Origin: Cupriavidus sp. IDO
GTDB taxonomy: Bacteria; Pseudomonadota; Gammaproteobacteria; Burkholderiales; Burkholderiaceae
DNA length: 64,000 nt
NCBI RefSeq assembly: GCF_000812465.1
Contig: NZ_JWMA01000114.1
Span: forward strand, 1-64,000
Direction: 5' to 3'
Below are positions 39,933 to 63,850 of this stretch, in pieces. How positions within the stretch are numbered: the first letter of the stretch is position 1; each line of letters begins with the position of its first letter. The notes below the pieces were generated by a model. That model did no database searches and was not told where the DNA came from. It was given only the letters and a program-made list of their open reading frames with translations. The translations under genes were made by a program, and so were the position numbers.

Positions 39933-40679
39933 CTATTGGGCGGCATAGCCGCCATCCACCATCAAGCTGGCCCCCGCCATGAACGAGGCATCGTCGCTGG
40001 CCAGGAACGTGATAGCGGCGGCGATTTCCTCTGCCCGTCCGAGCCTGCCGATTGGATGGAGGCCGGTGACCTGCGCGAGGCTCTCGTCGCTGGCACCGGC
40101 GATCAGCGGTGTCTCGATGAAGCCCGGGCACACGGCATTGACCCGAATGCCTTCCTTTGCGCAGGCGACACCGAGCGAGCGCGTCATGTTCACCACGCCG
40201 CCCTTGGCGGCGTTGTATGCCGTGGCGCCCGGTCTTCCGACATGGCCAAGCACCGAGGCGATATTGACGACCGCGCCGCCGCCCCCCTGCCTCTTCATCT
40301 GCGCGATGGCGTACTTGTTGCTGAAGAATACGCCAGTAAGGTTCACGTCCAGCATCTGGTGCCAGGCCTCGCTGGTGAGCGATTCGACCGGCAGGGCCTG
40401 CTGTGCGATGCCGGCATTCGCGACCATGATGTCGAGCTGGCCGAATTCCAGCGCCACCGCCGCCACCAATTCGCGCACCTCGTGCTCGCGCGTGACATCC
40501 ACGCGCGAGAATCGCACCGCATGCCCCGCTCCGGCCAACTCGTGGGCCAGCAGTTCACCGCGCTCTGACAGGTCCGTCAGCACGACCGTCGCACCTTCGG
40601 CCACGAACCGCCGCACGGTCGCCGCGCCAATCCCGCTGGCGCCTCCGGTGACAATCGCCACCCTGTTCTTCAGCTTCAT
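39933..40679 (-). CDS. SDR family oxidoreductase, last gene of set A
   Basis: This 248-residue short-chain dehydrogenase has TGGASGIGAATVRRF, NAGIAQQA, and YNAAKGG as its catalytic Tyr-Lys block, with NVASVLGHVG carrying the serine. It is FabG-like. The start at 40679 precedes the fold directly. It is the last gene of the minus-strand series with hydrolase, porin, dioxygenase, TctC, quinone reductase, second SDR and two BKACE genes. It may oxidise a hydroxylated intermediate to a beta-keto acid, but cannot be distinguished from the second SDR by sequence alone. Confidence 0.89.
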   Translation of the reverse strand: MKLKNRVAIVTGGASGIGAATVRRFVAEGATVVLTDLSERGELLAHELAGAGHAVRFSRVDVTREHEVRELVAAVALEFGQLDIMVANAGIAQQALPVESLTSEAWHQMLDVNLTGVFFSNKYAIAQMKRQGGGGAVVNIASVLGHVGRPGATAYNAAKGGVVNMTRSLGVACAKEGIRVNAVCPGFIETPLIAGASDESLAQVTGLHPIGRLGRAEEIAAAITFLASDDASFMAGASLMVDGGYAAQ

Positions 40680-40838
40680 GGATCCCTCCGCGGCTATCCG
40701 CGCACTTGTTGCCTGTTGAAAACAAAGAAGAGGTTCCGCAGGCGTTGCCCTTGGAACCTCCGAAACCCGGCTGCCGTGGAAAGTGTCATCAAGACCGGAG
40801 GTCGGCACCCGGGGTGGAGACGCAATGAATGGTGAATC

Positions 40839-41408
40839 TCACAGCTCGCGGAGCAACTCCGCGGCCTTCGGCCAGTTGCCATATCCGTCGGACGGCGAGA
40901 GATGACCGATGTCGCCGCCATCGACGAAGCGGCTCCCCCAGGCCTGCGCAAGGGCTTGGACCTGCTCGAATCCTCCGATCGGGTCGTTGCGGCTGCCGAC
41001 CACGATGCTCGGGAACGGCAGGCGCGCCCTGGGCAGCGGTGTCCAGCCGCTGGCAGCCAGGGTCTGCGGATCGGAGTAGCCGGCGGGCAGGCGCGTGTCG
41101 AGGTCGGCGGGGGCGGCAAGCAATGCGCCCTCGACCTCGCGCGTCGTCTGCTGTGCCCAGTGAACAGTGATGCAGCACCCCATGCTATGGGCCACCAGGA
41201 CGATCGGCCCTTCGATGCTGCTGACGACGCGCTCGAGGTTCGCCACCCTGGCGCTGCGCAGCGCCTTGTCGTGGTCGATCTGCGGCACGATCTGCACCGC
41301 CCTTCCCTGCGCTTGCAGTTGTTCGGCGAGCAGCGTTTGCCAGTGCTCCGGCATGTGGTCGCGAAGACCGGGAACAATCACGACCGTCGGCAGGTTGGTA
41401 GAAGTCAT
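40839..41408 (-). CDS. RBBP9/YdeN-type alpha/beta hydrolase
   Basis: This 189-residue serine hydrolase has the family opening TVVIVPGLRDHMPEHWQTLL, the nucleophile elbow AHSMGC and the late aspartate/histidine region (GSRNDPIGG and GGDIGHLSPSDGYG). Its natural substrate is unknown. It lies between the porin and SDR of set A. A broken copy occurs in set C at 57206-57770, so it was an original part of the repeated pathway and is dispensable in at least one copy. Confidence 0.88.
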   Translation of the reverse strand: MTSTNLPTVVIVPGLRDHMPEHWQTLLAEQLQAQGRAVQIVPQIDHDKALRSARVANLERVVSSIEGPIVLVAHSMGCCITVHWAQQTTREVEGALLAAPADLDTRLPAGYSDPQTLAASGWTPLPRARLPFPSIVVGSRNDPIGGFEQVQALAQAWGSRFVDGGDIGHLSPSDGYGNWPKAAELLREL

Positions 41409-41565
41409 GGAATTCGATTTCCTCGGTTGAGATCCGGAGCGTGATCGCCCTGCGCCCCGGATGAACGTGCCACGCTCCCCTGCGCACGAAGCGTGACACG
41501 TCGCGGGGCGAGGTGCCGTGAGCGCAGGATGCTACCTGCCCGCGGCACCGCCACCACGCGGGTCG

Positions 41566-42723
41566 TCAGAAGATATGGCGGATGCCCGCGGCCGCGCCAA
41601 ACATGGACGTCTGCCCGTTGGACAGCGCGTAGCTATTGCCCAGTGCCAGGCTGGAGGCAAAGCCACTCGCCGCCGAGTCCATGCTCAGTCCTGCGTTGCG
41701 GGTATACGCCGTGGTCAGGTAGACGTCGGTCCGCTTCGAGAACGCGTAGTCGACGATCAGGGCGATCTGCCACGGATTGGCCGCGTGCGTGTTGCCGCCG
41801 AGGTTCTTCAGGTTCTGGTAGTCATACTCCAGCGTGAAGTCCAGCGCCTGCGACAGGCGGTACTGGCCACCGACCCAGTAGAAGTCGTCGCGCAGGATCT
41901 CCTTGCCCGTCTGGTCCTTGTTCTGCCCCCAGCGGTAGCCGCCCATCACCTTGGCCGCGCCAATCGAATAGCTGGCCATCACGGCCGCCTTCTTCAAGGT
42001 GCCGTTGCTCGTGCCGATCGTCGGGTTCCACTGGTCGTAGGCAAGGCCCAGGCCGAGCGGGCCGTTCATGTAGGTCACGCCAGCACCGTAGGCCGAATCG
42101 CGGCGAAACTGGCCTGGCACTTCGCCGGTGCCGCCCAACGTGGGAATACCGGGATTGACCTGCGGCAGCGTCGTGCCGACGCCGAACGACCAGTGTGCCA
42201 TCGCGGTCACGGGACCGAACGTGCCGGTGTACTGTGCCACGTTGTCCTCGCGGAAGTTCGCGCCGGCGATGACGCCCGCCGGTTCATACTGCGTGGCGAA
42301 GCGGGCCGGCACGAAGTTGGCCATCGACACGAACAGCGACGTGTATTGGCGGCCGAAGGTGCCCTGTCCGTAGTTCGACCGGAGGCCGACAAAAGCCTGG
42401 CGGCCGAACATGCGTCCGCCTTGCTGCAGGGTGCCGGTATCGGCGTTGAAGCCATTTTCCAGCACGAAGATGGACTTCAGCCCGCCACCGAGGTCTTCCG
42501 TGCCGCGCAGGCCCCAGCGCGAGCCGGAGTAGCCGCCGGAGTTCTCGCGGACCACCGAATGGCCGGTGCCGGGATTGAAGCCGTTGGCCGCCGACGGCAC
42601 GACGCCGACCTTGTTGACGTATTCGATGTTGACGTCAGCCACGCCGTACAGCGTGACGCTGGACTGCGCCTGGGCTGCACCACATGCCATCGCAGCGGCC
42701 AGGGCAAGCATGGCTCTTTTCAT
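41566..42723 (-). CDS. Gram-negative porin of set A
   Basis: This 385-residue outer-membrane porin has a signal peptide ending CGAAQAQ, starts SSVTLYGVADVNIEYVNK, contains GSRWGLRGTEDLGGGLKSIF and FGRQAFVGLRSNYGQGTFG, and ends GIRHIF. It is the same family as the porin at 37032-38135. It sits between the dioxygenase and hydrolase genes of set A and probably admits the pathway substrate. Confidence 0.91.
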   Translation of the reverse strand: MKRAMLALAAAMACGAAQAQSSVTLYGVADVNIEYVNKVGVVPSAANGFNPGTGHSVVRENSGGYSGSRWGLRGTEDLGGGLKSIFVLENGFNADTGTLQQGGRMFGRQAFVGLRSNYGQGTFGRQYTSLFVSMANFVPARFATQYEPAGVIAGANFREDNVAQYTGTFGPVTAMAHWSFGVGTTLPQVNPGIPTLGGTGEVPGQFRRDSAYGAGVTYMNGPLGLGLAYDQWNPTIGTSNGTLKKAAVMASYSIGAAKVMGGYRWGQNKDQTGKEILRDDFYWVGGQYRLSQALDFTLEYDYQNLKNLGGNTHAANPWQIALIVDYAFSKRTDVYLTTAYTRNAGLSMDSAASGFASSLALGNSYALSNGQTSMFGAAAGIRHIF

Positions 42724-42893: not shown

Positions 42894-43742
42894 TCAGAAT
42901 GGACGGTCTCCGATGATCGTTGCGCGGTCCATCCTGCGGTGGCACGGCGGATAGTCCATGACGGCGTAATGCGTGGTCGACCGGTTGTCCCAGATGGCCA
43001 CGCTGTTCATCTTCCAGCGCCAGCGGACCTGATATTCGGGAATGCAGGCCTGAGTGACCAGGTAGCGCAGCAGGTCTGCCGCCCCGGGGTTGTTGTCCTG
43101 CCCGAAACGCACGCGCGCCGGCGTGTGGAAGTTGGTGAAGTGAGTGGTGAACCCGTTGACGAACAGCACCTTCTCGCCGGTCTCCGGGTGGGTCCGCACC
43201 ACCGGGTGCTCGGCGTCTGGGAACTGACTCCTCAGCGCCAGGCGCCGCTCGATTGGCATGGCGGCACCAAAGCTCGCCTCGATGCTGTGTCGCGCCCGAA
43301 GGTCGGCGATCTGCTCCTTGACGTGGGCCGGCAGGTTTTCGTACGCAAGCACCATGTTGGCCCACATGGTGTCGCCCCCGACGGGCGGGCACTCCCAGCA
43401 CCGCAGGACGGCGCCAAGCGGCGGTACTTCGCGCCAGGTCGCGTCCGTGTGCCAGGCGTTCTCGTAACGATCCGGCGGGTTGGCGGGCGTCTTGTAGATC
43501 TGCACCAGCCCCGGATTCTCCGGGTCGCTACCCGTCACGGGGTGGTCCTCCAGATCCCCGAAGCGGCGCGCAAAGGCCACGTGCTGGGCGGCCGTGATGT
43601 CCTGATCGCGCAGGAACAGCACGCGGTGCCTGAGCAGCGCTTCGCGGATGGCGGCGAACAGGCCGTCATCATGGATCGCATCGGCCAGGCTGACCCCAAT
43701 GAGTTCCGCGCCGATTGCGCAGGTAAGTTGTTCAACTCGCAT
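42894..43742 (-). CDS. TauD/TfdA family 2-oxoglutarate dioxygenase (set A)
   Basis: This 282-residue Fe(II)/2-oxoglutarate dioxygenase of the TauD/TfdA family has an iron-binding HTD at His98 and Asp100 (NAWHTDATWR) and a distal His258 (WDNRSTTHYAVMDY), with the 2-oxoglutarate arginine near RRMDR. The enzyme hydroxylates a C-H bond of a small organic acid, sulfonate or ether. It is close to the set B dioxygenase and more distant from the set C one. It follows the orphan TctC protein, 12 bases away, suggesting that the TctC ligand is its substrate or is related to it. Confidence 0.9.
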   Translation of the reverse strand: MRVEQLTCAIGAELIGVSLADAIHDDGLFAAIREALLRHRVLFLRDQDITAAQHVAFARRFGDLEDHPVTGSDPENPGLVQIYKTPANPPDRYENAWHTDATWREVPPLGAVLRCWECPPVGGDTMWANMVLAYENLPAHVKEQIADLRARHSIEASFGAAMPIERRLALRSQFPDAEHPVVRTHPETGEKVLFVNGFTTHFTNFHTPARVRFGQDNNPGAADLLRYLVTQACIPEYQVRWRWKMNSVAIWDNRSTTHYAVMDYPPCHRRMDRATIIGDRPF

Positions 43743-43754
43743 GGTCGACGGGTG

Positions 43755-44735
43755 TCATTCCGGCTGGATTTTGAAGGTCTTCACGATGCCGGCATTCCGA
43801 TCGAAATCGGCGCGCAAGTCGTGGCTGAGCTGGGGAAGTCCTTGTGGCTCCAGCGGCTCGAACCCGAGTGCAGAAATCCGCTCCTTCACGCTGGCTCTCG
43901 AGGCGGCCTTGTAGACGGCCGCCTGGATCTTCTCGGTCAGGTCTGCCGGCAGCCTGGACGACACGAACACGCCGGTCCAGTTGCTGAAGTCAACTTCCGG
44001 ATAACCCAGCTCGGCGAACGTCGGCACCTGCGGGAGCATCGGTGACCGCTGCTTCGCGGCGACGGCATAGGCTTTCAGCTTGCCAGCCTTGAGATAAGGC
44101 AGCGAGGTCACCATGCCGTCATACATCACGGCAATCTGCCCGCCCATCACCTGCGCCAAGGCCGGCGGCGACCCCGGGAACGGAATGTTCTGGAGGTCCA
44201 TGCCGGCCTTCTGGTTCATGATCATGCCGGCATACTGCGAAGCCGTGCCCGGGCCATAGTTCGCGAAGCTCAGGGTGCCCGGATGCGCCTTCACATAGCT
44301 GATCAGCCCCGGCAGGTCCTTCGCCGGCAGGCTGGGCGCTCCGACGAGCAGCAGCGTCGATTTGGCCACGGCCGCAACCGGCTTCACATCCTTCATCGGA
44401 TCGTAGGGCACCTTCATCACATGCGGGATCTCCGCAAACACGTTGGTCGCCGACACCAGGATGGTCTGCCCATCGGGCGGCGCCGCCAGCATTGCGCCGA
44501 CCGCGATGGCGCCGCCAGCTCCCGGCTTGTTGTCGACGATCACCGGCTGCCCCAGGTCTGCCGTGAGCTGTTCGGACAGCATGCGGGCCATCACATCCAT
44601 CGTGCCGCCGGCAGGCGCGGGCACCAGCACCCGCACCGGTTTGTTGGTCCACGCCATGGCGGCAGGCATGGCAAGCGCCAGGAGCGTCGCGGCGACGACG
44701 CGGCGCACGCGCAGGAAGGCAGGTCGATTCGACAT
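43755..44735 (-). CDS. Bug/TctC family periplasmic solute-binding protein (orphan)
   Basis: This 326-residue periplasmic protein has a signal peptide ending AAMA and TctC motifs (PVRVLVPAPAGGTMDVMARM, LGQPVIVDNKPGAGGAIAVG). It should bind a carboxylate. No TctA or TctB gene is present in the window, as is usual for Burkholderiales Bug proteins, so it may work with an unlinked permease or as a sensor. The Met at 44735 starts the signal peptide; the frame upstream lacks similarity. Confidence 0.9.
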   Translation of the reverse strand: MSNRPAFLRVRRVVAATLLALAMPAAMAWTNKPVRVLVPAPAGGTMDVMARMLSEQLTADLGQPVIVDNKPGAGGAIAVGAMLAAPPDGQTILVSATNVFAEIPHVMKVPYDPMKDVKPVAAVAKSTLLLVGAPSLPAKDLPGLISYVKAHPGTLSFANYGPGTASQYAGMIMNQKAGMDLQNIPFPGSPPALAQVMGGQIAVMYDGMVTSLPYLKAGKLKAYAVAAKQRSPMLPQVPTFAELGYPEVDFSNWTGVFVSSRLPADLTEKIQAAVYKAASRASVKERISALGFEPLEPQGLPQLSHDLRADFDRNAGIVKTFKIQPE

Positions 44736-44882
44736 CAGTAGTCTCCGTTGTGGAACTTCCGGCAATGTGCACTTGCCTTGTTTGAAGCAGCCGCCTTCCG
44801 GCAACCTGGCCAAGCCAGGTGGGCGAAGCGACTGCCGGGTGGATTGCGTAACTGCCGCAATCGCTTGAAAAGCTGCCTTGCC

Positions 44883-45854
44883 TTACGGCACCAGTACCGT
44901 CGCGCCGCTCGTCTGCCTGTTCTCCAGGGCGCGATGGGCCTGCGCGGCGTCTTCCAGCGCGAACGACTGCTTCGGCTCGCTGGTGATCTTTCCAGCCATC
45001 ACCATGTCGAACACCTCGTTGGCCATGGCGAGCATGTGCGAGCGCGGCGTGGCGTAGTGCACCATAGCCGGACGCGTGACCCAGAGCGAGCCTTTCGCCG
45101 CGAGCGTGCGGCTGTCGATCTCGACGGGACCTGAAGTCGTGCCGTTGCTGACGAGCGTGCCGCGTACCTGCAGGCAGGACAGCGAGGCGTCCAGCGTCGA
45201 CTTGCCTACCGAATCGAACACCACCGGGACCTTCTTGCCATCGGTGATTTCCATCACGCGGTCGACGATGTTCTCGCGCGAGGTGACGATGACATGCGAG
45301 CAGCCGTTGGCCTTGGCAAGCTCTGCCTTCTCGTCGGTGCTGACCGTCCCGATCATGTTCACGCCAAGGGCGCGTGCCCACTGGCAGGCGATCAGGCCCA
45401 CGCCGCCGGCTGCGGCGTGATAGAGGATGGACTCGCCGCCCTTGAGCGGGTAGACCTGGCGGAACAGGTATTGCGCCGTCATCCCCTTCATGATGAGCGT
45501 GGAGGCGACGCGGTCGGAGACGCCGTCCGGCAGCGGGATCAGCCACTCGGCAGGCATGACCCGCACGTCCGAGTAGGCGCCTTGCGGGCCGAGCAGGTAG
45601 CCCACGCGGTCACCCACGCGGATGTCCGTCACGCCGGGACCCACCGCCTCGACGACGCCAACGGCGTCGGAGCCCAGGCCGTTAGGCAGTTCCAGGGGAT
45701 AGTGGCCGGTCCGAAAATAAATGTCGATGAAGTTAACGGCGATATAGGTGTGCCGCACGCGAGCCTGGCCCGGGCCGGGATCACCTACCTCCACAGACTC
45801 GAGCTTGAGGACATCAGCGCTGCCCGTCTCGTAAAACCGAATTGCTTTTGCCAT
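44883..45854 (-). CDS. NADPH:quinone oxidoreductase family protein (QOR, set A)
   Basis: This 323-residue medium-chain dehydrogenase of the zinc-free quinone oxidoreductase branch shows the typical start MAKAIRFYETGSADVLKLES and the cofactor motif AAAGGVGLIACQWA. It would reduce a quinone or an enoyl/enone with NADPH. A paralogue with the same pattern is at 62870-63850, and a more distant one at 57841-58830. It lies between SDR and TctC genes. Its place in the pathway is uncertain. Confidence 0.89.
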   Translation of the reverse strand: MAKAIRFYETGSADVLKLESVEVGDPGPGQARVRHTYIAVNFIDIYFRTGHYPLELPNGLGSDAVGVVEAVGPGVTDIRVGDRVGYLLGPQGAYSDVRVMPAEWLIPLPDGVSDRVASTLIMKGMTAQYLFRQVYPLKGGESILYHAAAGGVGLIACQWARALGVNMIGTVSTDEKAELAKANGCSHVIVTSRENIVDRVMEITDGKKVPVVFDSVGKSTLDASLSCLQVRGTLVSNGTTSGPVEIDSRTLAAKGSLWVTRPAMVHYATPRSHMLAMANEVFDMVMAGKITSEPKQSFALEDAAQAHRALENRQTSGATVLVP

Positions 45855-45926: not shown

Positions 45927-46673
45927 CTACATTGCTGTCTTGCCGCCATTGACTCCGAGAATCTGACCCGTTATGTACCTGGACCGGGCGGACGCCAGGA
46001 ACACAATGGCGTCGGCGACCTCCTCCGGGGTCCCGATGCGACCCGCGGGGATCGTCGCGGCAACTGCCGCAATGTTCTCGGCGCCTCCCGCAATGCGGTC
46101 CAGCATCCCGGTATCGATAGGGCCAGGCGCAACCGCATTCACTCGCACATTCGATCTGGCAGCCTCGAGTGCTGCAGCCTTGGTCAAGCCCTCGATCGCG
46201 TGCTTGCTAGCCACATACATTGGATTCTGTGCGTTGCCGCGGCTTCCCATGGTGGAGGAGAGGTTGATAACAACGCCCTCCTTCTGCTCCAGCATGACGC
46301 GCAACTCGTGCTTCATGCTAAGGAACGTCCCAAGGACATTCGCGTCGAAGGTCGCCGCATAGGATTCAACTGTCTGTGCAACGATCGACCCTGGCGTGCC
46401 TTCAGTCCCTGCACTGTTCACTGCGACATCGAGCCGTCCAAAGCGGGCGACGGTATGCTCCACGAGCTGGCGGACCTGCTCCTCATTGCCTACGTCGGCG
46501 GGCACGAAGTCGGCCTCGGCACCGAGTTCCCGGAGCTGAGACACAAGTGCAGCGCCTGCAGTAGCATTGCGGCCGGAGCAAACCAGCCGTGCCCCTTCAC
46601 GGCCAAACGCAAGCGCAGTTGCGCGGCCAATTCCAGACGTGGCTCCCGTAACGAGTACGACGGTATGAGTCAT
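45927..46673 (-). CDS. SDR family oxidoreductase (set A, second copy type)
   Basis: This 248-residue short-chain dehydrogenase has VTGATSGIGRATALAFG, VNSAGTEGTPG, INLSSTMGSRG and YVASKHA. The catalytic residues are intact. A close paralogue is at 54884-55630 in set C, in each case next to a BKACE gene, so the SDR is the best candidate for making the beta-keto acid that the cleavage enzyme uses. The Met at 46673 was chosen because the seven-residue extension lacks similarity. Confidence 0.9.
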   Translation of the reverse strand: MTHTVVLVTGATSGIGRATALAFGREGARLVCSGRNATAGAALVSQLRELGAEADFVPADVGNEEQVRQLVEHTVARFGRLDVAVNSAGTEGTPGSIVAQTVESYAATFDANVLGTFLSMKHELRVMLEQKEGVVINLSSTMGSRGNAQNPMYVASKHAIEGLTKAAALEAARSNVRVNAVAPGPIDTGMLDRIAGGAENIAAVAATIPAGRIGTPEEVADAIVFLASARSRYITGQILGVNGGKTAM

Positions 46674-46780
46674 GAAACTCCTTACTTGAATCAAGGCGAA
46701 ACAAACCGATCCAGTTGCAGCAATTCAGGCTGGAATGCACGCATCAATTGGATCGATTCTTTGTCTGGGCCGTAGCCGGC

Positions 46781-47839
46781 TCAGGCTACGCGGCGCAGCG
46801 GCACGTTCTTGACACCAGGTTTGCGGTTCGGGGTCATACCGTTGGCGGCCAAGGTTTCGTCGACATCGCTGTACCAGGTGCCGATACGGTAGATTTCCCG
46901 CGCTTCCTTGCCATCGGCGATCTCACGGCCCAACTCCTTGGCGATTCGCACAAGCTGCTGAACCTGCTGTACGGAGGTAAAGCGCTTGCCATGCTGATCG
47001 ATGAGGGTGTCCTCAATGCCGCAGCGCACATGCATACCCATTGCCAGCGCCATCGTGTTCCACGGAAGTACGTTCTTGAACAGCGACTCAGCGGTAATGG
47101 TGCAGCCATCCGGTGCACGTTGGATAAAGTCGAACAGGTTGTACGGATGTGGTCCATGGTGGCCGCCACCGATGCCGATGCAGGTCAGGTTCAGCGGGCC
47201 TTTGTAGAGGCCCCTGCGCACCATGCGGTCCAGCGTTTCAAGCGCATGCATGCCAACCAGCTGAAAGTGCGGCTGGATGCCGGCTTCTTGCAGGCGGCGC
47301 AAGTGCTCTTCCGCCCAGGTCGGGCCGGCCGGAACAATCATTTCACGGTACGCGTCGTAGACGGCCGGGTTGGCCATGTGCGTACTCTCGTAGTACTCCG
47401 GATAGATCAACTCCATGATGTTCATCTGGATGGTGTTGAGTGCTACCGTCACCTGATCCGGCTTCGGGTCGAGGTCGGCCAGTGCATGACGGGTATCGTC
47501 TGACAGCCATTTGGCAGCCTGGCCTTCGTCTTCCGGTGCAAAGGAAATCGAGCCGCCGACCTGAATGATCATGTCCGGCACCGCCTTGCGCACGCCGGCG
47601 ATCAGTTCGTTGAACATGGACAGGCGCTTGGAGCCCTTGCCATCCGGCTCACGCACGTGCAGGTGCAGCACACTGGCGCCGGCTTCATAGCAATCCACCG
47701 CCTTCTGGATCTGCTCTTCCATGGTCACAGGGATGTCTTCCGGGAAATCTTCCGGCATCCACTCCGGGCCGTACGGGGCCACGGTGATTACCACCTTGTC
47801 CATGTTCTCCGGGTGCAGCGAATCATCCAAAAATTGCAT
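46781..47839 (-). CDS. BKACE family beta-keto acid cleavage enzyme, 352-residue type (set A)
   Basis: This 352-residue TIM-barrel enzyme belongs to DUF849, the beta-keto acid cleavage family (Kce-like). These enzymes react a beta-keto acid with acetyl-CoA to make acetoacetate and a shortened CoA ester. The zinc-binding VLHLHVRE contains His59 and His61, and RCGIED supplies Arg272, Glu276 and Asp277 matching the Kce active site. It has a close paralogue at 51639-52700. The next gene upstream is a shorter BKACE, so set A has two non-identical cleavage enzymes, perhaps for successive or alternate substrates. Confidence 0.9.
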   Translation of the reverse strand: MQFLDDSLHPENMDKVVITVAPYGPEWMPEDFPEDIPVTMEEQIQKAVDCYEAGASVLHLHVREPDGKGSKRLSMFNELIAGVRKAVPDMIIQVGGSISFAPEDEGQAAKWLSDDTRHALADLDPKPDQVTVALNTIQMNIMELIYPEYYESTHMANPAVYDAYREMIVPAGPTWAEEHLRRLQEAGIQPHFQLVGMHALETLDRMVRRGLYKGPLNLTCIGIGGGHHGPHPYNLFDFIQRAPDGCTITAESLFKNVLPWNTMALAMGMHVRCGIEDTLIDQHGKRFTSVQQVQQLVRIAKELGREIADGKEAREIYRIGTWYSDVDETLAANGMTPNRKPGVKNVPLRRVA

Positions 47840-50613: not shown

Positions 50614-50715
50614 ATGGCTACACCCAGTCTTTCCATTACGGACCATGGTGCCGCGGTCTGGCTTGCGGATACCGCACGTTCCGATTCAGTCTTAGTGCGT
50701 TCGGAGGCTGAATGA
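50614..50715 (+). CDS. 33-residue ORF coupled to the set B dioxygenase
   Basis: A short frame with GAGGAGACA six bases upstream of ATG and a TGA that overlaps the dioxygenase ATG (ATGA). The product MATPSLSITDHGAAVWLADT plus 13 more residues resembles no family I know. Good ribosome site and coupling suggest it is translated, so it may act as a leader that couples ribosomes into the dioxygenase, or is the stub of a deleted gene. Confidence 0.5.
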   Translation: MATPSLSITDHGAAVWLADTARSDSVLVRSEAE

Positions 50716-55879: not shown

Positions 55880-56815
55880 TCAAAACGCGACAGCGTTCCT
55901 GCCCTTCAGTTGAAGCATGTCACGCGCCTCGTCCGGCGTCGCCACCTCGAGGTTCAGCGATTTCAGAACGCCAACGACGTGCTTGACCTGGTCGGCATTG
56001 CTCTTCGACAGGCGGCCCGGGCCATCCCAGAGCGAGTCCTCCAGCCCCACGCGGACGTTTCCGCCCATGGCAGCCGCCATCGAGGCAATCGGTATCTGGC
56101 TGCGGCCGGCGCCGAGCACCGACCAGTAGTAGTCCTTGCCGAACAGCCGCTCGGCGGTGCGGCGCATGTGCATGACGTCCTCGGGATGCGTGCCGATGCC
56201 GCCGAGCAGGCCGAACACCGACTGGATGAAGAACGGCGCCTTGAGGATGCCGCGGTCAGCGAAGTGCGCGGCGGTATAGAGATGACTGGTGTCGTAGCAT
56301 TCGACTTCGAAGCGAGTGCCATTGTCGGCACACGACTCCAGGATGTAGCGGATCTCCTTGAACGTGTTGCGGAAGACGCGGTCCTCGGAGCCCTCTAGGT
56401 AGGGACGCTCCCAGTCGTGCTTGAACTCCTTGTGGCGGGCGAGCATCGGATACAGGCCGAAGTTCATTGAACCCATGTTCAGCGAGGCCACTTCTGGCTT
56501 GAGCTGCAGCGCCGGCTGGAGGCGCTCTTCGACCAGCATGTTGGGAGCGCCGCCGGTCGTGAGGTTAACCACCACGTCAGAGCGCGCCGCGATCTCCGGC
56601 AGGAAGTCGCGGAACAGCGCGGGGTCCTGCGACGGCTGGCCATTCTCCGGCTTGCGCGCATGCAGGTGGACGATCGACGCGCCGGCCTCGGCGGCAGCAA
56701 TGGCCTCGCTGGCGATTTCCTGCGCGGTAATGGGGAGATACGGCGACATCGTCGGAGTGTGAATGCCGCCCGTCACGGCGCACGTGACGATGACCTTGCT
56801 CTGGGGTGCTGCCAT
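55880..56815 (-). CDS. BKACE family beta-keto acid cleavage enzyme, 311-residue type (set C)
   Basis: This 311-residue DUF849 enzyme is nearly identical to 47940-48875 (for example VLGAGRSQIPIASMAAAM here, VLGAGRSQMPIASMAAAM there), with the same His50/His52 and RVGLED residues. A recent duplication is the simplest explanation. It heads the minus-strand pair with the set C SDR. Confidence 0.9.
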   Translation of the reverse strand: MAAPQSKVIVTCAVTGGIHTPTMSPYLPITAQEIASEAIAAAEAGASIVHLHARKPENGQPSQDPALFRDFLPEIAARSDVVVNLTTGGAPNMLVEERLQPALQLKPEVASLNMGSMNFGLYPMLARHKEFKHDWERPYLEGSEDRVFRNTFKEIRYILESCADNGTRFEVECYDTSHLYTAAHFADRGILKAPFFIQSVFGLLGGIGTHPEDVMHMRRTAERLFGKDYYWSVLGAGRSQIPIASMAAAMGGNVRVGLEDSLWDGPGRLSKSNADQVKHVVGVLKSLNLEVATPDEARDMLQLKGRNAVAF

Positions 56816-56932: not shown

Positions 56933-56965
56933 GAATGTCCTACATGGAAGCCGGGACACCGGAGC

Positions 56966-57071
56966 GTGCGGTACGGCGTTGACAAGTCGCCCGGCGCTAC
57001 CAATCAACGACTACTTTCCAGCACCGTCCAAGTTGGAGCGCGCCCGCATCGTGGGCGATATCCCCTACTGA
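56966..57071 (+). pseudogene. Deletion-riddled TauD/TfdA dioxygenase remnant (inverted copy)
   Basis: VRYGVDKSPGA, then after a collapse NDYFPAPSKLERARIVGDIP and the stop, match two parts of the set C dioxygenase (VRYGIDKSPGAS and NDYYPAPRKLERAGIVGDIPY) separated by about 45 residues there. Most of the gene is gone, and the two pieces are in different frames. With the leader repeat at 56885-56932 it forms the ends of an internally deleted inverted copy of 58890-59890. Confidence 0.85.
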
Positions 57072-57205: not shown

Positions 57206-57770
57206 TCAGAGTTGCTGAACGAGTTCCTCTGCCAGCGGCCACGGTCCATATCCGTCTGCCGGTCCGAGATCCCCACTCCCCCGGCATCGACCAAACGGCT
57301 GCCCCAGGCCTGCGCCAGCTCGCGGATTCGTTCGAACTTCCCGAGAGGATCATTGCGGCTCGCAACCACGATGCTTGGGAATTTCAGCGGCCGCCGCGAA
57401 ATGGGGGTCCGGCCCTCGTCTGCCAGCGTCTGCGGATCCTTGTTTCCGGCAGACAACGGGCTGTCGTAGTCGGTCGGCCCGGCAAGTAGTACACCCTGCA
57501 CGGCGCGCTCCATCTGCTGTGCCCAGTGAACCGTGATCGACAGCCCACACTATGAGCAACGAGGATCACCGGCCCTGCAATGCTTACGACACGGTCAACG
57601 TTTGCCAACCTGGCACTGCGCAACCGCTTGTCCTGATCAATCTGGGGCACGATGCGCACCGCTCGTCCCTGCTGCTGCAATCGCTCCGCCAGTAGCGATT
57701 GTCAGTGCTCCGGCATGTGATCGCGAAAGCCAGGAACAATCACAACCGTTGGCTGATTTCCGGATGTCAT
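57206..57770 (-). pseudogene. Broken RBBP9/YdeN-type hydrolase (set C copy)
   Basis: The translated pieces match the set A hydrolase at 40839-41408 along its length: MTSGNQPTVVIVPGFRDHMP, then LQQQGRAVRIVPQIDQDKRL, ILVAHSVGC, and FPSIVVASRNDPLGKF. The Trp codon at HWQ is TGA, a nonsense change near 57702; the frame shifts after AHSVGC, and again after GGVG near 57270, before recovering GYGPWPLAEELVQQL and the stop. Three independent lesions mean it is not functional. It lies 70 bases after the quinone reductase gene. Confidence 0.88.
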
Positions 57771-57840: not shown

Positions 57841-58830
57841 CTATTCGGTATCACACCGAACAACAACGGTGCCCAGCTTAGTGCCCGCTTCGACAGCCAG
57901 ATGAGCCTTCACTGTGTCTCGCAAGTCGAAGATACTATCGACAGCGTGAATGGCATCCGGGACGTCTTTCATCCAGCGCGACAATCCCTCCTGGATTATC
58001 CAGCGCACCTCGCAGGGCAACCCTGGCAGGTATAGTCCCTGCAGGCAGAGATTCTTGCGAATCAGCGCGACCAGGGGAAGCGCCTGGTGGGCACCGCTGG
58101 CATACGAGACCCACTGCGCATGATTAGCGGCGACCTGCAGACAAAGCCCTGCGTTGTCGACCGCATTGACATCGACAATGTGATCGACACCTCGTCCCTG
58201 AGTGGCATCGAGAACCTGCAGCGCGGCATCCGCTGATGCGTAGTCGATCACTACATCGGCGCCGCCGAGTGTGGCGTGTGCCGCCTTGCGCTCGGAACTG
58301 GTGGTGGCAACGACATACGCACCTCCCCACTTGGCGAGCTGCACCGCGTAGTGCCCGACGGCCCCGGCACCGCCGGTCACGAGGATCCGCTTTCCCTTGA
58401 TCGCGCCATGCTGAAACAGGCTCCAGTAGGCGGTCATGGCCGGAATGCCCAGGGATGCGCCCTGCGCGAAGTCCAGGTGCTCCGGCAGTGGTGACGTCAA
58501 CTCGTGCGGGAGGCAGATGTATTCCGCTGCCGTACCAAAAGGACGCCCTCGCTGTCCGAAATGCAGCCAGACTCGCGACCCGAGCATCCTGCGGTCGACT
58601 CCGTCACCAAGCCTGTCGATCACACCCGCACCATCGCTGTTCGGAATAATGCGCGGGAACTCCATGCCGCCATGCATGCGTCCGGCTCGCCGGTTCACAT
58701 CTCCCGGGTTAACGGCCGACGCATGGAGTCGCACGCGTACTTCGCCCGGTGCTGGTTGCGGTGCGGGAAGATCGCCGAATTGCAATACCTCCTCAGCCCG
58801 CCCTTGTTTCTCGTACCAAATCGCCTTCAT
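57841..58830 (-). CDS. NADPH:quinone reductase-type medium-chain dehydrogenase (set C)
   Basis: This 329-residue medium-chain dehydrogenase begins MKAIWYEKQGRAEEVLQFGD and has a GGAGAVGHYAVQLAKWGGA cofactor loop. It lacks the structural-zinc cysteines, as expected for quinone oxidoreductases. It is more distant from the two QOR proteins at 44883 and 62870. It follows the set C dioxygenase by 59 bases, so it is probably in the same transcript. Confidence 0.89.
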   Translation of the reverse strand: MKAIWYEKQGRAEEVLQFGDLPAPQPAPGEVRVRLHASAVNPGDVNRRAGRMHGGMEFPRIIPNSDGAGVIDRLGDGVDRRMLGSRVWLHFGQRGRPFGTAAEYICLPHELTSPLPEHLDFAQGASLGIPAMTAYWSLFQHGAIKGKRILVTGGAGAVGHYAVQLAKWGGAYVVATTSSERKAAHATLGGADVVIDYASADAALQVLDATQGRGVDHIVDVNAVDNAGLCLQVAANHAQWVSYASGAHQALPLVALIRKNLCLQGLYLPGLPCEVRWIIQEGLSRWMKDVPDAIHAVDSIFDLRDTVKAHLAVEAGTKLGTVVVRCDTE

Positions 58831-58889: not shown

Positions 58890-59735
58890 TCAGTAGGGGA
58901 TATCGCCCACGATGCCAGCGCGCTCCAACTTACGGGGTGCTGGATAGTAGTCGTTGACGGCGTAGTGCTGTGTGCTGCGGTTGTCCCATACCGCCACGTC
59001 GCCCTCCTGCCATGCCCAGCGCACCTGGTACTCGGGAATGGTAGCGCGGCTGGTCAGGTAGTTGAGCAGCAGCGAGGCGCCGGGCGACTTGTCGATGCCG
59101 TAGCGCACGTTGTCCGGCGTGCTGTAATTGGTGAAGTGCGTCGTGAACGAGGCGCCGACGAACAGGATCTTCTCCCCGGTCTCCGGATGGGTGCGTACCA
59201 CTGGATGCTCCACCGGCGGATGATCGCTGGCCAGCTTTGCGCGGTTTTCCGGCGTCATGACCGCCCCGAAGCTGTGCTCGATGCTGGCCCTGGCGCGCAG
59301 GCCGTCGATCTTCCTCTTGATGTCTTCCGGCAGTTCCTCGTACGCCTTCACCATGTTGACCCAGATGGTGTCGCCGCCGATCTCGGGGCATTCGATGCAA
59401 CGCAGCACTGCCCCCATGGCCGGATTGGGGCGCCACAGGCCGTCGCAGTGATAGCTGTTCTCGAAGCTGTGCGGGTTGTCGCTGCGGTAGACCCTCACGA
59501 GGCCCGGATGTTCGGGAACACTGCCGACCACCGGATGGTCTTCCAGCTTGCCGAAGCCGCTGGCGAAGGCCACGTGATCGGCGCGCGTGATCTCCTGCTT
59601 GCGAAAGAAGAGGACCCGGTGCCTGAGCAGCGCCGCCCGGATCTCGGCGAAGACTGCCGGATCGCGCGCCGCCTCGCCGAGGTTGACGCCAGAAATCTCG
59701 GCCCCGATGGCGGGGGTGATTTGCCTGATTTTCAT
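58890..59735 (-). CDS. TauD/TfdA family 2-oxoglutarate dioxygenase (set C)
   Basis: This 281-residue Fe(II)/2-oxoglutarate dioxygenase has the iron site SYHCDGLWR (His96, Asp98) and WDNRSTQHYAVNDYYP for the distal histidine. It is the more divergent of three such enzymes here, and the DGLWRPN segment replaces DATWREVP, so its substrate may differ. The Met at 59735 was chosen; a ten-residue extension has no family match. It follows an MFS carrier in the minus-strand order. Confidence 0.9.
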   Translation of the reverse strand: MKIRQITPAIGAEISGVNLGEAARDPAVFAEIRAALLRHRVLFFRKQEITRADHVAFASGFGKLEDHPVVGSVPEHPGLVRVYRSDNPHSFENSYHCDGLWRPNPAMGAVLRCIECPEIGGDTIWVNMVKAYEELPEDIKRKIDGLRARASIEHSFGAVMTPENRAKLASDHPPVEHPVVRTHPETGEKILFVGASFTTHFTNYSTPDNVRYGIDKSPGASLLLNYLTSRATIPEYQVRWAWQEGDVAVWDNRSTQHYAVNDYYPAPRKLERAGIVGDIPY

Positions 59736-59842
59736 TGCTACGCTCCAAAAACCCTGTGAATCCATGGATAATTCAACACCTGGCTTCTTGCAGGCCAGGT
59801 ATCTGCGCCCCCGGCTTTTATGCCTACTTTATTGAGCCTTTT

Positions 59843-59893: not shown

Positions 59894-61246
59894 TCATTTC
59901 CCGACGATGTCGCAAGTCGCCTTTTCCGCGACGTGACACCACCTGCCAATGACGAACACGGCAAAGGGAGGAACTGCCGCGAGCGGTAGCCAGCGCAAGG
60001 CAACCTCAAGGCCAACCGCGTCCGCAACCATACCGGTAACGAGGGGGCCTGCGGCGAGGCCCAGGATATTGTTGAACAAGGTCAGCGTGGCAAATACCGA
60101 GCCATGAATGGCTGGCGGGGTGCCTTCGGCAATGATCGGGTTACAGGTGCCGAACGTGCTGGCGAGGAAAAACACCCCGGGCGCAAGGAACGCCAGTTGC
60201 AGATTGCCATGTGGCAAGCGGAACGCGACAGCAAGCAGCGCGCCTAGCGCAAGGCAATAGCAAATGGCCATGTTCCAGCGCTTAAGCACCGAATCCCCGC
60301 TGATGCGGTCGGTCATTACCCCGCAGAGGAGTTGGCCCAGGCCGCTGACAAGGAGAAGGCAGGCCGCCAGGACGGCCGCCTTTTCGACAGGCATACCCCA
60401 GTAGCGATGCAGGTAGCTGGGCAGCCAAACAAAAAGGGTGCCCTGGACGAAGAGCTGCAGGGCGCTGCCGAGGTACGCACAAAAGACGGAACGGGACGGA
60501 AACAGGCCTGAGACAAACGCACGGGGTGTCAGTTTCACACGCCCGTACTTCGGAGTTGGGTTTGCATTGTTCGGTTGCACACTGGCGAGTTTCTCCTCCG
60601 TGACCACGGCGCAATAGATGATCACCAGCACAAAGCCAATGATTGCCATCACGCCCATCGACCACCGCCAGCCAAAATGCGTAGCGATGAGGCCGGAAAG
60701 CGAAACGCCGAGCACGGACCCAAATGCAGCCGCCGACGTGAAGCCGCCGGCAACAGTAGACCGCATATGCCGCGGAAAGATACTCAGGAGCATCGCGAAT
60801 CCGACGCTTCCATAAGCGGCCTCGCCGACACCAACGAAGAAGCGTGCGACGAACATCTCGTGGTAGTTGCTGGCGATGGCGCACCCAGCCGTGGCAGCAC
60901 TCCACACTGCTACCATCAATGCAATGCTTCTGACACGTCCCCAGCGGTCCGCGATGATGGAGAACGGGAGAGTCAGCACTCCGACCATCAACGGCACTAC
61001 GCTGCTGATCGAACCGAGTTGTGTGTCGGTAATCTGCCACTGCGCTTTCAGAAGCGGAAACAAGGCATTGAGCGCCTGCCGCGACATGTAATCAGACAGC
61101 AACAGGCAAAACATCAAGGAAAATACCACCCATGCGTAACCCTTGGCGCCGGCGGTGGCGGTGGCGGTGGCGGTGGCGGTGGCGGTGGCGGTGGCGGTGG
61201 GTGAAGCCGACTCAACCGGCATTGCGTTATTCGAATACGGGTTCAA
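59894..61246 (-). CDS. MFS transporter with an N-terminal Thr-Ala repeat (set C)
   Basis: This major facilitator of about 450 residues has a normal twelve-helix core: VVFSLMFCLLLSDYMSRQAL in helix 1, the loop PFSIIADRWGRVRSIALMVA and GVGEAAYGSVGFAML in helix 4. It probably imports the set C substrate. Preceding helix 1 is a run of eight Thr-Ala units encoded by a hexanucleotide repeat. The likely start is TTG at 61246, since AGGAGACAGAA lies just upstream; ATGs at 61294 and 61222 lack a good ribosome site. Repeat number changes keep the frame. Confidence 0.87.
   Translation of the reverse strand: MNPYSNNAMPVESASPTATATATATATATATAGAKGYAWVVFSLMFCLLLSDYMSRQALNALFPLLKAQWQITDTQLGSISSVVPLMVGVLTLPFSIIADRWGRVRSIALMVAVWSAATAGCAIASNYHEMFVARFFVGVGEAAYGSVGFAMLLSIFPRHMRSTVAGGFTSAAAFGSVLGVSLSGLIATHFGWRWSMGVMAIIGFVLVIIYCAVVTEEKLASVQPNNANPTPKYGRVKLTPRAFVSGLFPSRSVFCAYLGSALQLFVQGTLFVWLPSYLHRYWGMPVEKAAVLAACLLLVSGLGQLLCGVMTDRISGDSVLKRWNMAICYCLALGALLAVAFRLPHGNLQLAFLAPGVFFLASTFGTCNPIIAEGTPPAIHGSVFATLTLFNNILGLAAGPLVTGMVADAVGLEVALRWLPLAAVPPFAVFVIGRWCHVAEKATCDIVGK
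61151..61200. repeat. Hexanucleotide GGCGGT tandem repeat within the MFS gene
   Basis: Eight consecutive GGCGGT units (plus strand) encode the Thr-Ala repeat at the N terminus of the MFS carrier on the minus strand. The unit length is a multiple of three, so slipped-strand changes alter length without frameshift. Confidence 0.9.
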
Positions 61247-61418
61247 TTCTGTCTCCTGCAATGGTTCGCGAAACTCAGGACTTCCGCCAACCATCGACCT
61301 TGTGATACATCCACGCTCGTTCTATTCTCGGATCGCACCGTGTCCCCGGGCTTAACCGATCTCCACAAATTCTTGCCGTTTTGCGCAAACAGAGGGAAAT
61401 CCCTGTCGAGGACGGCCT

Positions 61419-62645
61419 TTAGATAGCCTTTCTATCCCGCAAATCATGCAGGTCAGCCGTTGTGAGTTGCAGCCAGTCTTGAAGGACCTCATCGGTATGC
61501 TGGCCCAAGGTAGGTGGGCTTGAGCGGTACGTGACTGGCGAGCCGGACATACGAATGGGGTTGGCTACGAGCGGAACGCTGCCTGCCACAGGATGGGGTA
61601 CGCCAACTTGCATCTCCCGGTGGCGGACATGCTCGTCAGCAAACACTCTGTCGAGCGTGTTGATAGGTCCGCAAGGAACGCCGACTGATTCCATCGCGGC
61701 TATCCATTCGTCGGTTGTGCGCTTCACGGTGACTTCGCGAATCAGGGCAATCAGTGCTTCGCGGTTCGCGACTCGCTGAGCGTTCGTGACGAAACGGATA
61801 TCTTCCGCCCATGCCGCATGCCCGAGTACCTGGCAAAGCTTCGTGAACTGAAAGTCATTTCCGACAGCAATAATCATGTAGCCGTCGGCGGTCGAAAAAT
61901 CCTGATAGGGCACGATATTCGGATGAGCATTGCCCATCCGCTGTGGGACAGCGTTGCCGACCAGGAAGTTGGATGCCTGATTTGCCAGGTAGGCGATCTG
62001 GACGTCAAGCAATGCCAGGTCGATGTGCTGCCCTTCACCCGACTTTTGCCGGTGTGCCAATGCAGCCAGGATTGCGACGGTCGCATAGAGGCCGGTCATG
62101 ACGTCGGTGACTGCAACGCCGACTTTGATAGGACCGCCGCCTTCTACCCCATCGGGTTGGCCAGTAATGCTCATCAAACCGCCCATCCCCTGCATCAGAA
62201 AGTCATATCCCGGGCGAGCGGCGTACGGCCCTGTCTGTCCAAAGCCGGTAATGGAACAGTAGACCAACCGTGGATTGGCTGCCTTCAGGCCTTCGTAGTC
62301 GAGTCCATATTGAACCAGGCCCCCTACCTTGAAATTCTCAATGACAACATCCGACTCCATTGCGAGGCGCCGGATGACGTCTTGCCCGTCAGGAGAACTT
62401 AGGTCTACCGTCACCGAGCGTTTGTTGCGGTTCGCGCACAGGTAATACGCTGATTCGCCAGTGGACTCGCCATCCTGGGTGGCGAGCCACGGAGGACCCC
62501 ACGCCCGCGTGTCATCACCTTTGCGCGGTCGTTCCACCTTCACGACGTCCGCCCCCAGGTCAGCCAGCATCTGGCCGGCCCATGGGCCGGCAAGGACTCG
62601 CGAAAGGTCGAGCACCCGTACACCGTCGAGCGCGCCACGGCTCAT
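61419..62645 (-). CDS. CaiB/BaiF family class III CoA-transferase
   Basis: This 408-residue enzyme transfers CoA between acids. Family features are LDGVRVLDLSRVLAGPWAGQ, ADLGADVVKVERP, NRNKRSVTVDLSSPDGQDV and ARPGYDFLMQGMGGLMSITG with the catalytic aspartate. AAAAGGAGCGAAG lies before the ATG at 62645. The class III family includes formyl-, carnitine- and succinyl-CoA transferases. In set C it could activate the substrate or a product of BKACE cleavage, whose shortened acyl-CoA would donate CoA. Confidence 0.91.
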   Translation of the reverse strand: MSRGALDGVRVLDLSRVLAGPWAGQMLADLGADVVKVERPRKGDDTRAWGPPWLATQDGESTGESAYYLCANRNKRSVTVDLSSPDGQDVIRRLAMESDVVIENFKVGGLVQYGLDYEGLKAANPRLVYCSITGFGQTGPYAARPGYDFLMQGMGGLMSITGQPDGVEGGGPIKVGVAVTDVMTGLYATVAILAALAHRQKSGEGQHIDLALLDVQIAYLANQASNFLVGNAVPQRMGNAHPNIVPYQDFSTADGYMIIAVGNDFQFTKLCQVLGHAAWAEDIRFVTNAQRVANREALIALIREVTVKRTTDEWIAAMESVGVPCGPINTLDRVFADEHVRHREMQVGVPHPVAGSVPLVANPIRMSGSPVTYRSSPPTLGQHTDEVLQDWLQLTTADLHDLRDRKAI

Positions 62646-62869
62646 ATCTTCGCTCCTTTTGAGAATGTTGCTGTGCGGGCCATTGCGCCCCCGAGACTCC
62701 TCTCGGATCTCCAGGTTGAGATGTGAAGCTTGAGAATGTCGAACTAGATGAGAAAGCTGCTTCGCGCGCCAGCGGATCCTGAACAACCGGACTCGACTGC
62801 CACTTTGCTGGACTATGTCCTACTGCCCTGACCTGCCTGACGGCTGGACTCTCCCACGGAGGGAAACTG

Positions 62870-63850
62870 TCAAATCACGAAAATGGACGAGCCGGTGGTC
62901 TTTCGAGACTCGAGGTCCCGATGTGCCGGCGCGGCGTCCTCCAGGGCATAGCGCTGATTGATCCCGATGCGGATGCGGCCTGCCGCCACGTGGCCGAACA
63001 GCTCATCGACCAGTTCCGCCTTTTCGACAGGATCGGCGATATAGTCGGCCAGGCCCGGGCGCGTCAGGAATGCCGAGCCTTTGCGGGCCAGAATTGCCGG
63101 ATCGAATCCGGTGACCGGGCCGGAGGCGAAACCCACGCACACCAGCAGGCCGCGGCGCTTGAGGGAGTCCAGCGAGGACATGAAGGTGTCCTTGCCCACG
63201 CTGTCGAAGACCACGTTCACGCCCACGCCATCCGTCAGTTCCCGCACGCGCGTGACCACGTCCTCATGGCTGTAATTGATCGTGTGGTCACAGCCATGAG
63301 CGCGCGCGACTTCGGCCTTAGCGTCGGTAGAAACCGTTCCGATCACCGTCAGTCCCTGCAGCTTGGCCCATTGCGAAATGATCAGGCCGGCACCGCCGGC
63401 CGCGGCATGCAACAGGATGGAGTCGCCCGCCTTGAAGGGGTAGATCCGGCGCATCAGGTAGGCCGCTGACAAGCCCCGCATGGTCATGGCCGCCGCGACT
63501 TCGCAACTGATTGCCTCCGGCAACTTGATCAACGGTTCGGCAGAGATCAACCGCTCCGTGCTGTAGGCGCCCAGCGTGTTGGTAAAGCCCGTATAGGTCA
63601 CACGGTCGCCAACCGCCAGATGGGTGACGCCGGCACCGACGGCCTCGATCAAACCGGCGGCCTCGTTGCCGATGCCGCTGGGCAGCGGCACTTTGTAAGT
63701 ACCGCTGCGGAAGTAGGTGTCGGCAAAATTCAGGCCTACGGCCACGTGACGGACGCGGACCTCCCCCGGTCCTGGCTCACCCACACGGGCGTCCTCAAAA
63801 CGGAGGACATCGGGCCCGCCTGTTTCGTAAATCTTTACGACTTTCGCCAT
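62870..63850 (-). CDS. NADPH:quinone oxidoreductase family protein (QOR, set C)
   Basis: This 326-residue medium-chain reductase has MAKVVKIYETGGPDVLRFED and AAAGGAGLIISQWA for the NADPH site. It is a paralogue of the set A enzyme at 44883-45854. It heads the visible minus-strand order of set C, followed by CoA-transferase, MFS, dioxygenase and the second quinone reductase. The window ends about 150 bases upstream, so any further genes of set C are outside it. Confidence 0.9.
   Translation of the reverse strand: MAKVVKIYETGGPDVLRFEDARVGEPGPGEVRVRHVAVGLNFADTYFRSGTYKVPLPSGIGNEAAGLIEAVGAGVTHLAVGDRVTYTGFTNTLGAYSTERLISAEPLIKLPEAISCEVAAAMTMRGLSAAYLMRRIYPFKAGDSILLHAAAGGAGLIISQWAKLQGLTVIGTVSTDAKAEVARAHGCDHTINYSHEDVVTRVRELTDGVGVNVVFDSVGKDTFMSSLDSLKRRGLLVCVGFASGPVTGFDPAILARKGSAFLTRPGLADYIADPVEKAELVDELFGHVAAGRIRIGINQRYALEDAAPAHRDLESRKTTGSSIFVI

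Follow-up and report, generated by a model that had tools for sequence, protein, structure and literature searches.

A 64,000-nucleotide stretch of Cupriavidus sp. IDO (contig NZ_JWMA01000114.1, positions 1 to 64,000; hereafter the window) carries, between positions 39,933 and 63,850, copies of a real, conserved variant module of known enzyme families for which no description was found in the open-access literature searched. The widely conserved unit, which occurs in many soil bacteria, Actinobacteria included, comprises an AraC regulator and genes for BKL, TauD, QOR, an MFS transporter, and a serine hydrolase (SerH). BKL is a long, divergent protein with the fold of beta-keto acid cleavage enzymes (BKACE; DUF849, PF05853), TauD is an Fe(II)/2-oxoglutarate dioxygenase, and QOR is a reductase of the NADPH:quinone-reductase subfamily (MDR). 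SDR proteins, BKACEs resembling the canonical copies of the window (BKS), and CoA-transferases are add-ons to this unit. Genes for TauD, BKACE-family proteins, and QOR co-occur much more often than chance would allow, and this co-occurrence, along with the recurrence of set A of the window (described below) in full in one other genome and in part in two more, supports the proposal of an initial annotation that the region encodes a catabolic-looking module without a described substrate. We tentatively read the region as copies of a probably substrate-induced catabolic module in which TauD would desulfonate its substrate to a keto acid that is passed to BKL and then to QOR and SerH, with BKS and SDR as an extension in Cupriavidus.

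The composition of the unit follows from the neighborhoods of BKL genes in other genomes. A scan of the genome collection yielded at least 419 relatives, of which the best 80 are the closest kin of the query (77–98% identity). Partner genes in these 80 loci, some of which are cut by contig ends, were identified with tblastn (E of 1e-20 or better). TauD is present in 70 and QOR in 71 loci, all at an identity of at least 60%; looser matches place MFS in 67, serine hydrolase in 61, and AraC in 68 (MFS and AraC are broad families). SDR genes occur in 11 loci (2 at an identity of at least 50%), BKS-like BKACEs in three, and CoA-transferases in four. Because of these low counts, oxidation by an SDR followed by BKACE cleavage is not the core logic of the module. 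This speaks against the chain proposed in the initial annotation (hydroxylation, SDR oxidation, BKACE cleavage, and CoA transfer) as that logic; the chain may hold for the extended version in Cupriavidus. Gene clustering in the same loci adds further frequent companions, namely a Rieske ferredoxin in 49 loci, a DsbA-like protein in 33, and acyl-CoA ligases of two types in 30 and 20, respectively. One representative of the first ligase type passes the cut-off for 3-(methylthio)propionyl-CoA ligase (895 versus 822).

The unit is also found on plasmids. Eight of 24 BKL plasmid matches were opened, and five of these stretches share neighbors with the module (Novosphingobium, Rhodococcus, Tsukamurella, Azoarcus, and Streptomyces). 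Plasmids of Rhodococcus, Tsukamurella, and Novosphingobium have AraC beside QOR-TauD-BKL with MFS and hydrolase genes; the order on the Streptomyces plasmid is AraC-BKL-QOR-TauD-MFS-hydrolase followed by an acetoacetate-CoA ligase, and that on the Azoarcus plasmid is QOR-TauD-BKL-MFS-hydrolase, without AraC. The Diaphorobacter stretch has BKL, SDR, and BKS without TauD or QOR, the Ensifer stretch has BKL and a gene of the carboxymuconolactone-decarboxylase family (CMD), and the Cupriavidus P-10 stretch bears no annotation. A TauD relative is present in 14 of 18 further BKL stretches. Small CMD-family proteins are also encoded beside BKL at L010:4246-5749 and in loci L101, L145, L149, and L150, and neither TauD nor QOR was seen in the last two; BKL with a CMD-family protein is a possible second type of BKL module. 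Of 60 genomes of the genus, 47 carry BKL genes, as do 17 of a sample of 398 genomes from the phylum.

Within Cupriavidus, the association of BKL with TauD is specific to one clade of TauD and one clade of BKACE. In 14 of the 47 genomes with BKL, picked for few contigs and having a total of 81 BKL matches, 54 of 64 close TauD genes are within 10 kb of a BKL gene and 60 are within 20 kb, versus 0 of 23 distant TauD genes within 20 kb. Likewise, all 10 BKS genes with an identity of at least 89% have both BKL and a close TauD within 10 kb, and 0 of 13 BKS-like genes at 55–71% identity are near BKL. A random point in these genomes is within 10 kb of BKL ∼1.5% of the time; the counts come from related genomes and are not independent events. 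No close TauD is within 10 kb of 25 of the 81 BKL genes. The tentative reading includes that the module multiplied in many Cupriavidus genomes and was there sometimes extended by SDR and a canonical BKACE.

Twenty intact genes were counted between 39,933 and 63,850 on the basis of open reading frames and Pfam matches; these and two relics are as follows.

39933..40808, minus strand: SDR1 (PF13561 2.9e-67), start probably internal; best NCBIfam match NF053701, cis-4-hydroxycyclohexanecarboxylate dehydrogenase, 286.2, below the cut-off of 350
40839..41408, minus strand: SerH, PF06821-family serine hydrolase (PF06821 9.3e-45)
41566..42723, minus strand: porin (PF13609 3.5e-51)
42894..43742, minus strand: TauD1, Fe(II)/2-oxoglutarate dioxygenase (PF02668 9.3e-63)
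43755..44813, minus strand: TctC solute-binding protein (PF03401 2e-56)
44883..45854, minus strand: QOR1, NADPH:quinone-reductase subfamily (PF00107 3.1e-26; NF008024 350, cut-off 348)
45927..46694, minus strand: SDR2 (PF13561 9.4e-65)
46781..47839, minus strand: BKL1, long divergent BKACE-fold protein (PF05853 230.1 bits)
47940..48875, minus strand: BKS1, by its match a canonical BKACE in the 3,5-dioxohexanoate group (NF053538 532.1, cut-off 430; PDB 3e49 473.8 bits)
49041..50051, plus strand: AraC1 regulator, Arabinose_bd and HTH_18 (PF12625 4.9e-45, PF12833 3.5e-14)
50712..51614, plus strand: TauD2 (PF02668 2e-64)
51639..52700, plus strand: BKL2, second long BKACE-fold protein, with Q193 and E251 (PF05853 1.1e-62)
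53522..54577, minus strand: AraC2 regulator (PF12625 1.3e-42)
54884..55630, minus strand: SDR3 (PF13561 6.8e-63)
55880..56815, minus strand: BKS2, canonical BKACE by its match (NF053538 536.9, cut-off 430)
56963..57068, plus strand: TauD relic made up of two short C-terminal fragments (E 2.9e-09 in tblastn with TauD3)
57209..57770, minus strand: disrupted copy of the serine hydrolase gene, split into three fragments that lie in different frames (tblastn with SerH, 77%, 63%, and 59% identity)
57841..58830, minus strand: QOR2, more distant MDR reductase (PF00107 2e-18)
58890..59765, minus strand: TauD3 (PF02668 3.7e-65), start probably 59735
59894..61294, minus strand: MFS transporter (PF07690 4e-49)
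61419..62786, minus strand: CoA-transferase family III (PF02515 1.6e-135; NF052585, succinate-glutarate CoA-transferase, 535.5, below the cut-off of 750)
62870..63850, minus strand: QOR3 (PF00107 2.8e-25)

Pfam and tblastn confirm the families named in the initial annotation, namely four intact PF05853 proteins, three intact TauD proteins and a relic, three SDR, three QOR-like, and two AraC proteins, and single copies of porin, TctC, MFS, and CoA-transferase III. The intact PF06821 serine hydrolase and its frame-broken copy were absent from that annotation. The TauD relic spans 106 bases with pieces of 13 and 22 residues that match TauD3, and both relics are between BKS2 and QOR2. A relic consisting of TauD only was rejected because the larger broken gene is a serine hydrolase and the TauD remnant is just 106 bases.

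The division into three sets is fair but the sets are uneven. Set A, from SDR1 to BKS1 on the minus strand, is complete, with intergenic gaps of 12–170 bases (by the open reading frame ends used) and with AraC1 divergent; set B is only the TauD2-BKL2 pair, separated by 24 bases; and set C, from QOR3 to AraC2, lacks BKL and holds both relics. Contig C59 of the same genome carries a cousin of set C in which QOR3, TauD3, BKS2, SDR3, and AraC2 are matched at 90–97% and which has BKL and an unbroken serine hydrolase frame. Paralogues in the window are 91% (BKS1/BKS2), 64% (BKL1/BKL2), 82% (TauD1/TauD2), and 77% (SDR2/SDR3) identical. TauD3 is 61–63% identical to TauD1 and TauD2, QOR3 is 52% identical to QOR1, and QOR2 is 34% identical to QOR1 and 30% to QOR3. 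A search for the same neighborhood elsewhere, as the initial annotation had suggested, found BKS1-BKL1-SDR2-QOR1-TctC-TauD1-porin conserved gene for gene at 90–97% identity in Cupriavidus sp. LEh25 (locus L018), and partial recurrences of set A in loci L017 and L104.

The 7.9-Mb host genome has 18 PF05853 matches, of which four are partial and at or near contig ends. The partial matches form pairs of equal score, C135:6-401 with C161:6-401, both at contig starts, and C111:75916-76128, which is close to its contig end, with C194:82890-83102. These equal scores and contig-edge positions may reflect breaks of the assembly at BKL genes that are repeated. Elsewhere in the window, genes for an FAD_binding_2 protein, an SDR, an MFS carrier, and a porin are consecutive at 31660-38135 in a catabolic-looking block adjoining the studied region. 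A LysR regulator adjoins a CobW-family GTPase at 27190-29397, and a branched-chain-amino-acid-type permease, a periplasmic binding protein, and an amidase are all encoded on the minus strand at 19706-26888.

The initial annotation counted all four intact PF05853 proteins as beta-keto acid cleavage enzymes. All four score above the Pfam cut-off and belong to the same fold family, but only two have the canonical residues. BKS1 and BKS2, both of 311 residues, hold the zinc ligands and the catalytic Glu, Tyr, and Arg of BKACE, and both pass the cut-off of NF053538 (3,5-dioxohexanoate:acetyl-CoA acetone transferase), so that by sequence they are assigned to the canonical BKACEs of the 3,5-dioxohexanoate group. 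BKL1 (352 residues) and BKL2 (353 residues) are ∼40 residues longer than canonical BKACE, are 23–34% identical to BKS, and have neither the proposed catalytic Glu nor the usual Tyr. Rather than pointing to four different known substrates, residues sort the copies into two classes of two: at the place of Glu14 of Kce, BKS1 and BKS2 have Ile (read by eye from the sequences) and BKL1 and BKL2 have Glu.

Residue changes in BKL are consistent across 92 sequences (85 clustered BKL and seven from plasmids), which were compared with 11 canonical ones using the numbering of the Paracoccus enzyme for Glu171, Tyr173, Arg254, Glu258, and Asp259 (PMC11961710). The zinc ligands His, His, and Glu (Glu258) are conserved in 92 of 92 BKL and 11 of 11 canonical sequences, and all 92 BKL also keep Asp259 and Arg254 without exception. 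The position of Glu171, the proposed catalytic Glu of the Paracoccus BKACE in the available part of that report (PMC11961710), is instead Gln in 90 BKL, Met in one, and Val in one. The Tyr173 position is Thr in 77 of 92 and still Tyr in four, and a Glu is present at BKL position 251 in 91 of 92, where 10 of 11 canonical sequences have Leu. BKL1 accordingly has zinc ligands H59, H61, and E276, Q193 at the position of the proposed catalytic Glu, and the new E251. Because Arg254, which was the earlier candidate for the base, is unchanged in all 92, BKL may still have BKACE activity. Annotated records name BKL "3-keto-5-aminohexanoate cleavage protein", a name that the score of BKL1 does not support (139.4 versus a cut-off of 382); BKL1, the copy scanned, is below all four BKACE-type NCBIfam cut-offs listed for it. 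The predicted structure of BKL1 (mean pLDDT of 75.8) has Kce as its best match (TM of 0.83 on target and 0.66 on query), and the comparison gave no residue-level answer. The carnitine-induced KCE of Citrobacter amalonaticus was considered as a BKL and rejected because its 810 bases, by the coordinates in the available part of PMC12482172, are too short.

Module copies may differ in substrate. The Kce Glu14 position corresponds to Glu26 of BKL and is Glu in 99 of 115 BKL, including BKL1 and BKL2. In three BKL paralogues of the host genome of the window, this residue is Gly (L009), Gly (L011), and Gln (L010), and for this reason BKL paralogues probably differ in substrate. Since this position varies and TauD3 is unlike TauD1 and TauD2 next to the iron site, different copies may serve different compounds. 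When the residue types of BKL and TauD were paired locus by locus, no clear rule emerged. All 77 TauD sequences compared retain the Fe ligands and the positions of TauD His70, Arg266, and Arg270; the roles of these residues and of the 2-oxoglutarate Arg are taken by us to be those of TauD. Solved structures nearest to TauD1 are, by deposited name, taurine dioxygenases (547.6 bits for 5vn6, 203.7, and 199.3), followed by PlaO1 (175.0) and the best phenoxypropionate enzyme (147.7).

In the tentative desulfonation reading, the porin, TctC, and MFS proteins would import an anionic organic acid, and the TauD-type enzyme would oxidize a carbon bearing an anionic leaving group, most likely a sulfonate. 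The oxidized carbon would collapse to a carbonyl with loss of sulfite, making the keto acid directly and without an SDR. BKL, a predicted zinc enzyme, would act on this keto acid by way of a repositioned catalytic carboxylate (Glu171 replaced by Gln, new Glu251), and QOR and the serine hydrolase would act after it. In the extended version, BKS, of the 3,5-dioxohexanoate/beta-ketohexanoate group, and an SDR would process a further beta-keto acid and yield acetoacetate; the acetoacetate-CoA ligase that follows the Streptomyces operon supports the tentative reading as a whole.

Neighboring transporter genes provide a clue to the leaving group. A YeiH-family (PF03601) gene is beside BKL in 12 of the best 80 loci, all from Pseudomonas or the Massilia/Rugamonas group, as well as in Novosphingobium and Rhodococcus, with a weak 31% match in L028 of Cupriavidus. 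In 16 genomes with BKL, 23 PF03601 copies were located, and seven of them, from four genera, have a BKL gene within 5 kb, edge to edge, relative to ∼0.07 expected by rough arithmetic. Salmonella requires YeiH for resistance to sulfite, with YeiH as the main factor, according to the available part of PMC12880088. In Cupriavidus locus L153, a YeiH remnant is ∼2.5 kb from the QOR and TauD of a module. At L152:4390-8826, also in Cupriavidus, a related TauD is between TauE and YeiH with TctC and amidase genes and without BKL, a candidate sulfonate cluster that lacks BKL. Because a YeiH-type transporter often joins the module outside Cupriavidus, the dioxygenase may release sulfite from an organosulfonate. 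For the wider module the sulfonate reading is suggestive, and within the genus of the window it is weakly supported.

Several observations weigh against desulfonation. TauD1, the copy scanned, is below the taurine dioxygenase cut-off (NF007104, 261.1 versus 313). The alignment of BKL Glu26 with Kce Glu14 hints at a cationic rather than purely anionic substrate, as Glu14 contacts the 5-amino group of the substrate and is replaced by Trp in the triacetate enzyme (available part of PMC10470551). No TauD was seen in four of the 18 further BKL stretches (L144, a 5.4-kb contig, L149, L150, and L151). The 16 genomes of the YeiH survey were chosen for having BKL, with one of 17 (G196) left out, and three of the seven BKL-near copies come from one genus. 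In the 14 Cupriavidus genomes there is no enrichment, with one of 26 PF03601 matches within 10 kb of BKL, namely the L153 remnant of 34 profile positions, and TauE (PF01925) was rejected as a sulfite marker because only one of 125 is within 10 kb of BKL. Ten more PF03601 neighborhoods, eight from genus-mates and two from the host genome of the window, have no TauD or BKL within ∼5–7 kb; six of these copies are 59–64% identical to the operon type. In Cupriavidus locus L153, a YeiH remnant is ∼2.5 kb from the QOR and TauD of a module. At L152:4390-8826, also in Cupriavidus, a related TauD is between TauE and YeiH with TctC and amidase genes and without BKL, a candidate sulfonate cluster that lacks BKL.

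Other substrates and orders of reaction were weighed against the same data. The chain of the initial annotation, in which TauD hydroxylates, an SDR oxidizes, a BKACE cleaves with acetyl-CoA, and CoA is transferred, fits at most the extended version, and even there we consider it somewhat unlikely. BKS1 and BKS2 are canonical and above the NF053538 cut-off, all 10 of their orthologues occur with BKL and TauD, SDR2 forms part of set A and of its counterpart in L018, and Diaphorobacter carries BKL, SDR, and BKS together; yet SDR, BKS-like, and CoA-transferase genes are scarce in the best loci, and the proposed catalytic Glu is missing from BKL. The substrate is unlikely to be an amino or quaternary-amine acid resembling carnitine, which TauD would hydroxylate or dealkylate and whose cationic end Glu26 of BKL would bind. 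The prevalence of Glu at the position that contacts an amino group in Kce (available part of PMC10470551) speaks for it, whereas the three paralogues with Gly, Gly, and Gln speak against it and the recurrence of YeiH is left unexplained. As the initial annotation had noted, no gene of carnitine type, including carnitine dehydrogenase and betaine genes, is recognized in the 20 genes read, to which the search was confined.

Cleavage of an aryloxy or ether acid in the manner of TfdA, with TauD hydroxylating beside the ether oxygen and BKL, QOR, and the hydrolase processing the fragments, appears still less probable. It has in its favor that (R)-phenoxypropionate dioxygenases are among the homologues of TauD1 and that CMD-family and acyl-CoA-ligase genes recur by some modules, but taurine dioxygenases and then PlaO1 outscore the phenoxypropionate enzyme, and YeiH again has no role. 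Breakdown of a polyketide or beta-diketone acid of the triacetate type, with BKS as the end step, is very improbable. Although BKS1 and BKS2 exceed the 3,5-dioxohexanoate cut-off and anaerobic phloroglucinol degradation relies on a BKACE-family enzyme for this step (available part of PMC10470551), BKS-like genes are in just three of 80 loci, and no phloroglucinol-pathway cyclohydrolase family is among the Pfam matches of the 20 genes (the whole genome was not searched).

Returning to desulfonation, a bolder version, which is unlikely to hold in full, would make BKL a new catalytic class in the BKACE fold, its carboxylate moved from the Glu171 position to Glu251 on a neighboring strand, and the regular partner of a dedicated desulfonating dioxygenase that makes its keto-acid substrate. 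This logic would have spread through Proteobacteria and Actinobacteria and diversified into many Cupriavidus paralogues. Identifying the substrate of BKL would allow many annotations to be corrected and would bring a catalytic variant into a well-studied fold; it might also uncover a route of organic sulfur recycling in soil bacteria that is not yet on record. Open-access literature searches found no paper joining a beta-keto acid cleavage enzyme with TauD, with taurine dioxygenase, or with a dioxygenase and fitness; PMC12482172 names the cleavage enzyme and, in its available part, no TauD.

The module resembles several known systems and differs from each. It shares with the anaerobic phloroglucinol pathway, which combines a reductase, a cyclohydrolase, a dehydrogenase, and a lyase (triacetate acetoacetate-lyase), the 3,5-dioxohexanoate range of the BKS group, but uses an oxygen-dependent enzyme. 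With carnitine breakdown via 3-dehydrocarnitine it has in common a BKACE-family enzyme in acid catabolism, whereas in most modules no SDR is seen that could serve as the dehydrogenase and none of the 20 genes read is recognized as carnitine type. TauD-type desulfonation matches the module in dioxygenase family, in the iron and 2-oxoglutarate residues and the His70 and Arg270 positions, and in the YeiH gene beside some copies, and differs in that TauD1 falls short of the taurine dioxygenase cut-off, AraC control and uptake by MFS and TctC stand in place of sulfur-starvation ABC genes, and exporter genes are not enriched near BKL in Cupriavidus. Compared with known BKACEs, the four proteins of the window share the fold of the family and BKS1 and BKS2 have the full residue set, whereas BKL1 and BKL2 stand apart by their extra length, the Gln in place of the proposed catalytic Glu, and the new Glu251.

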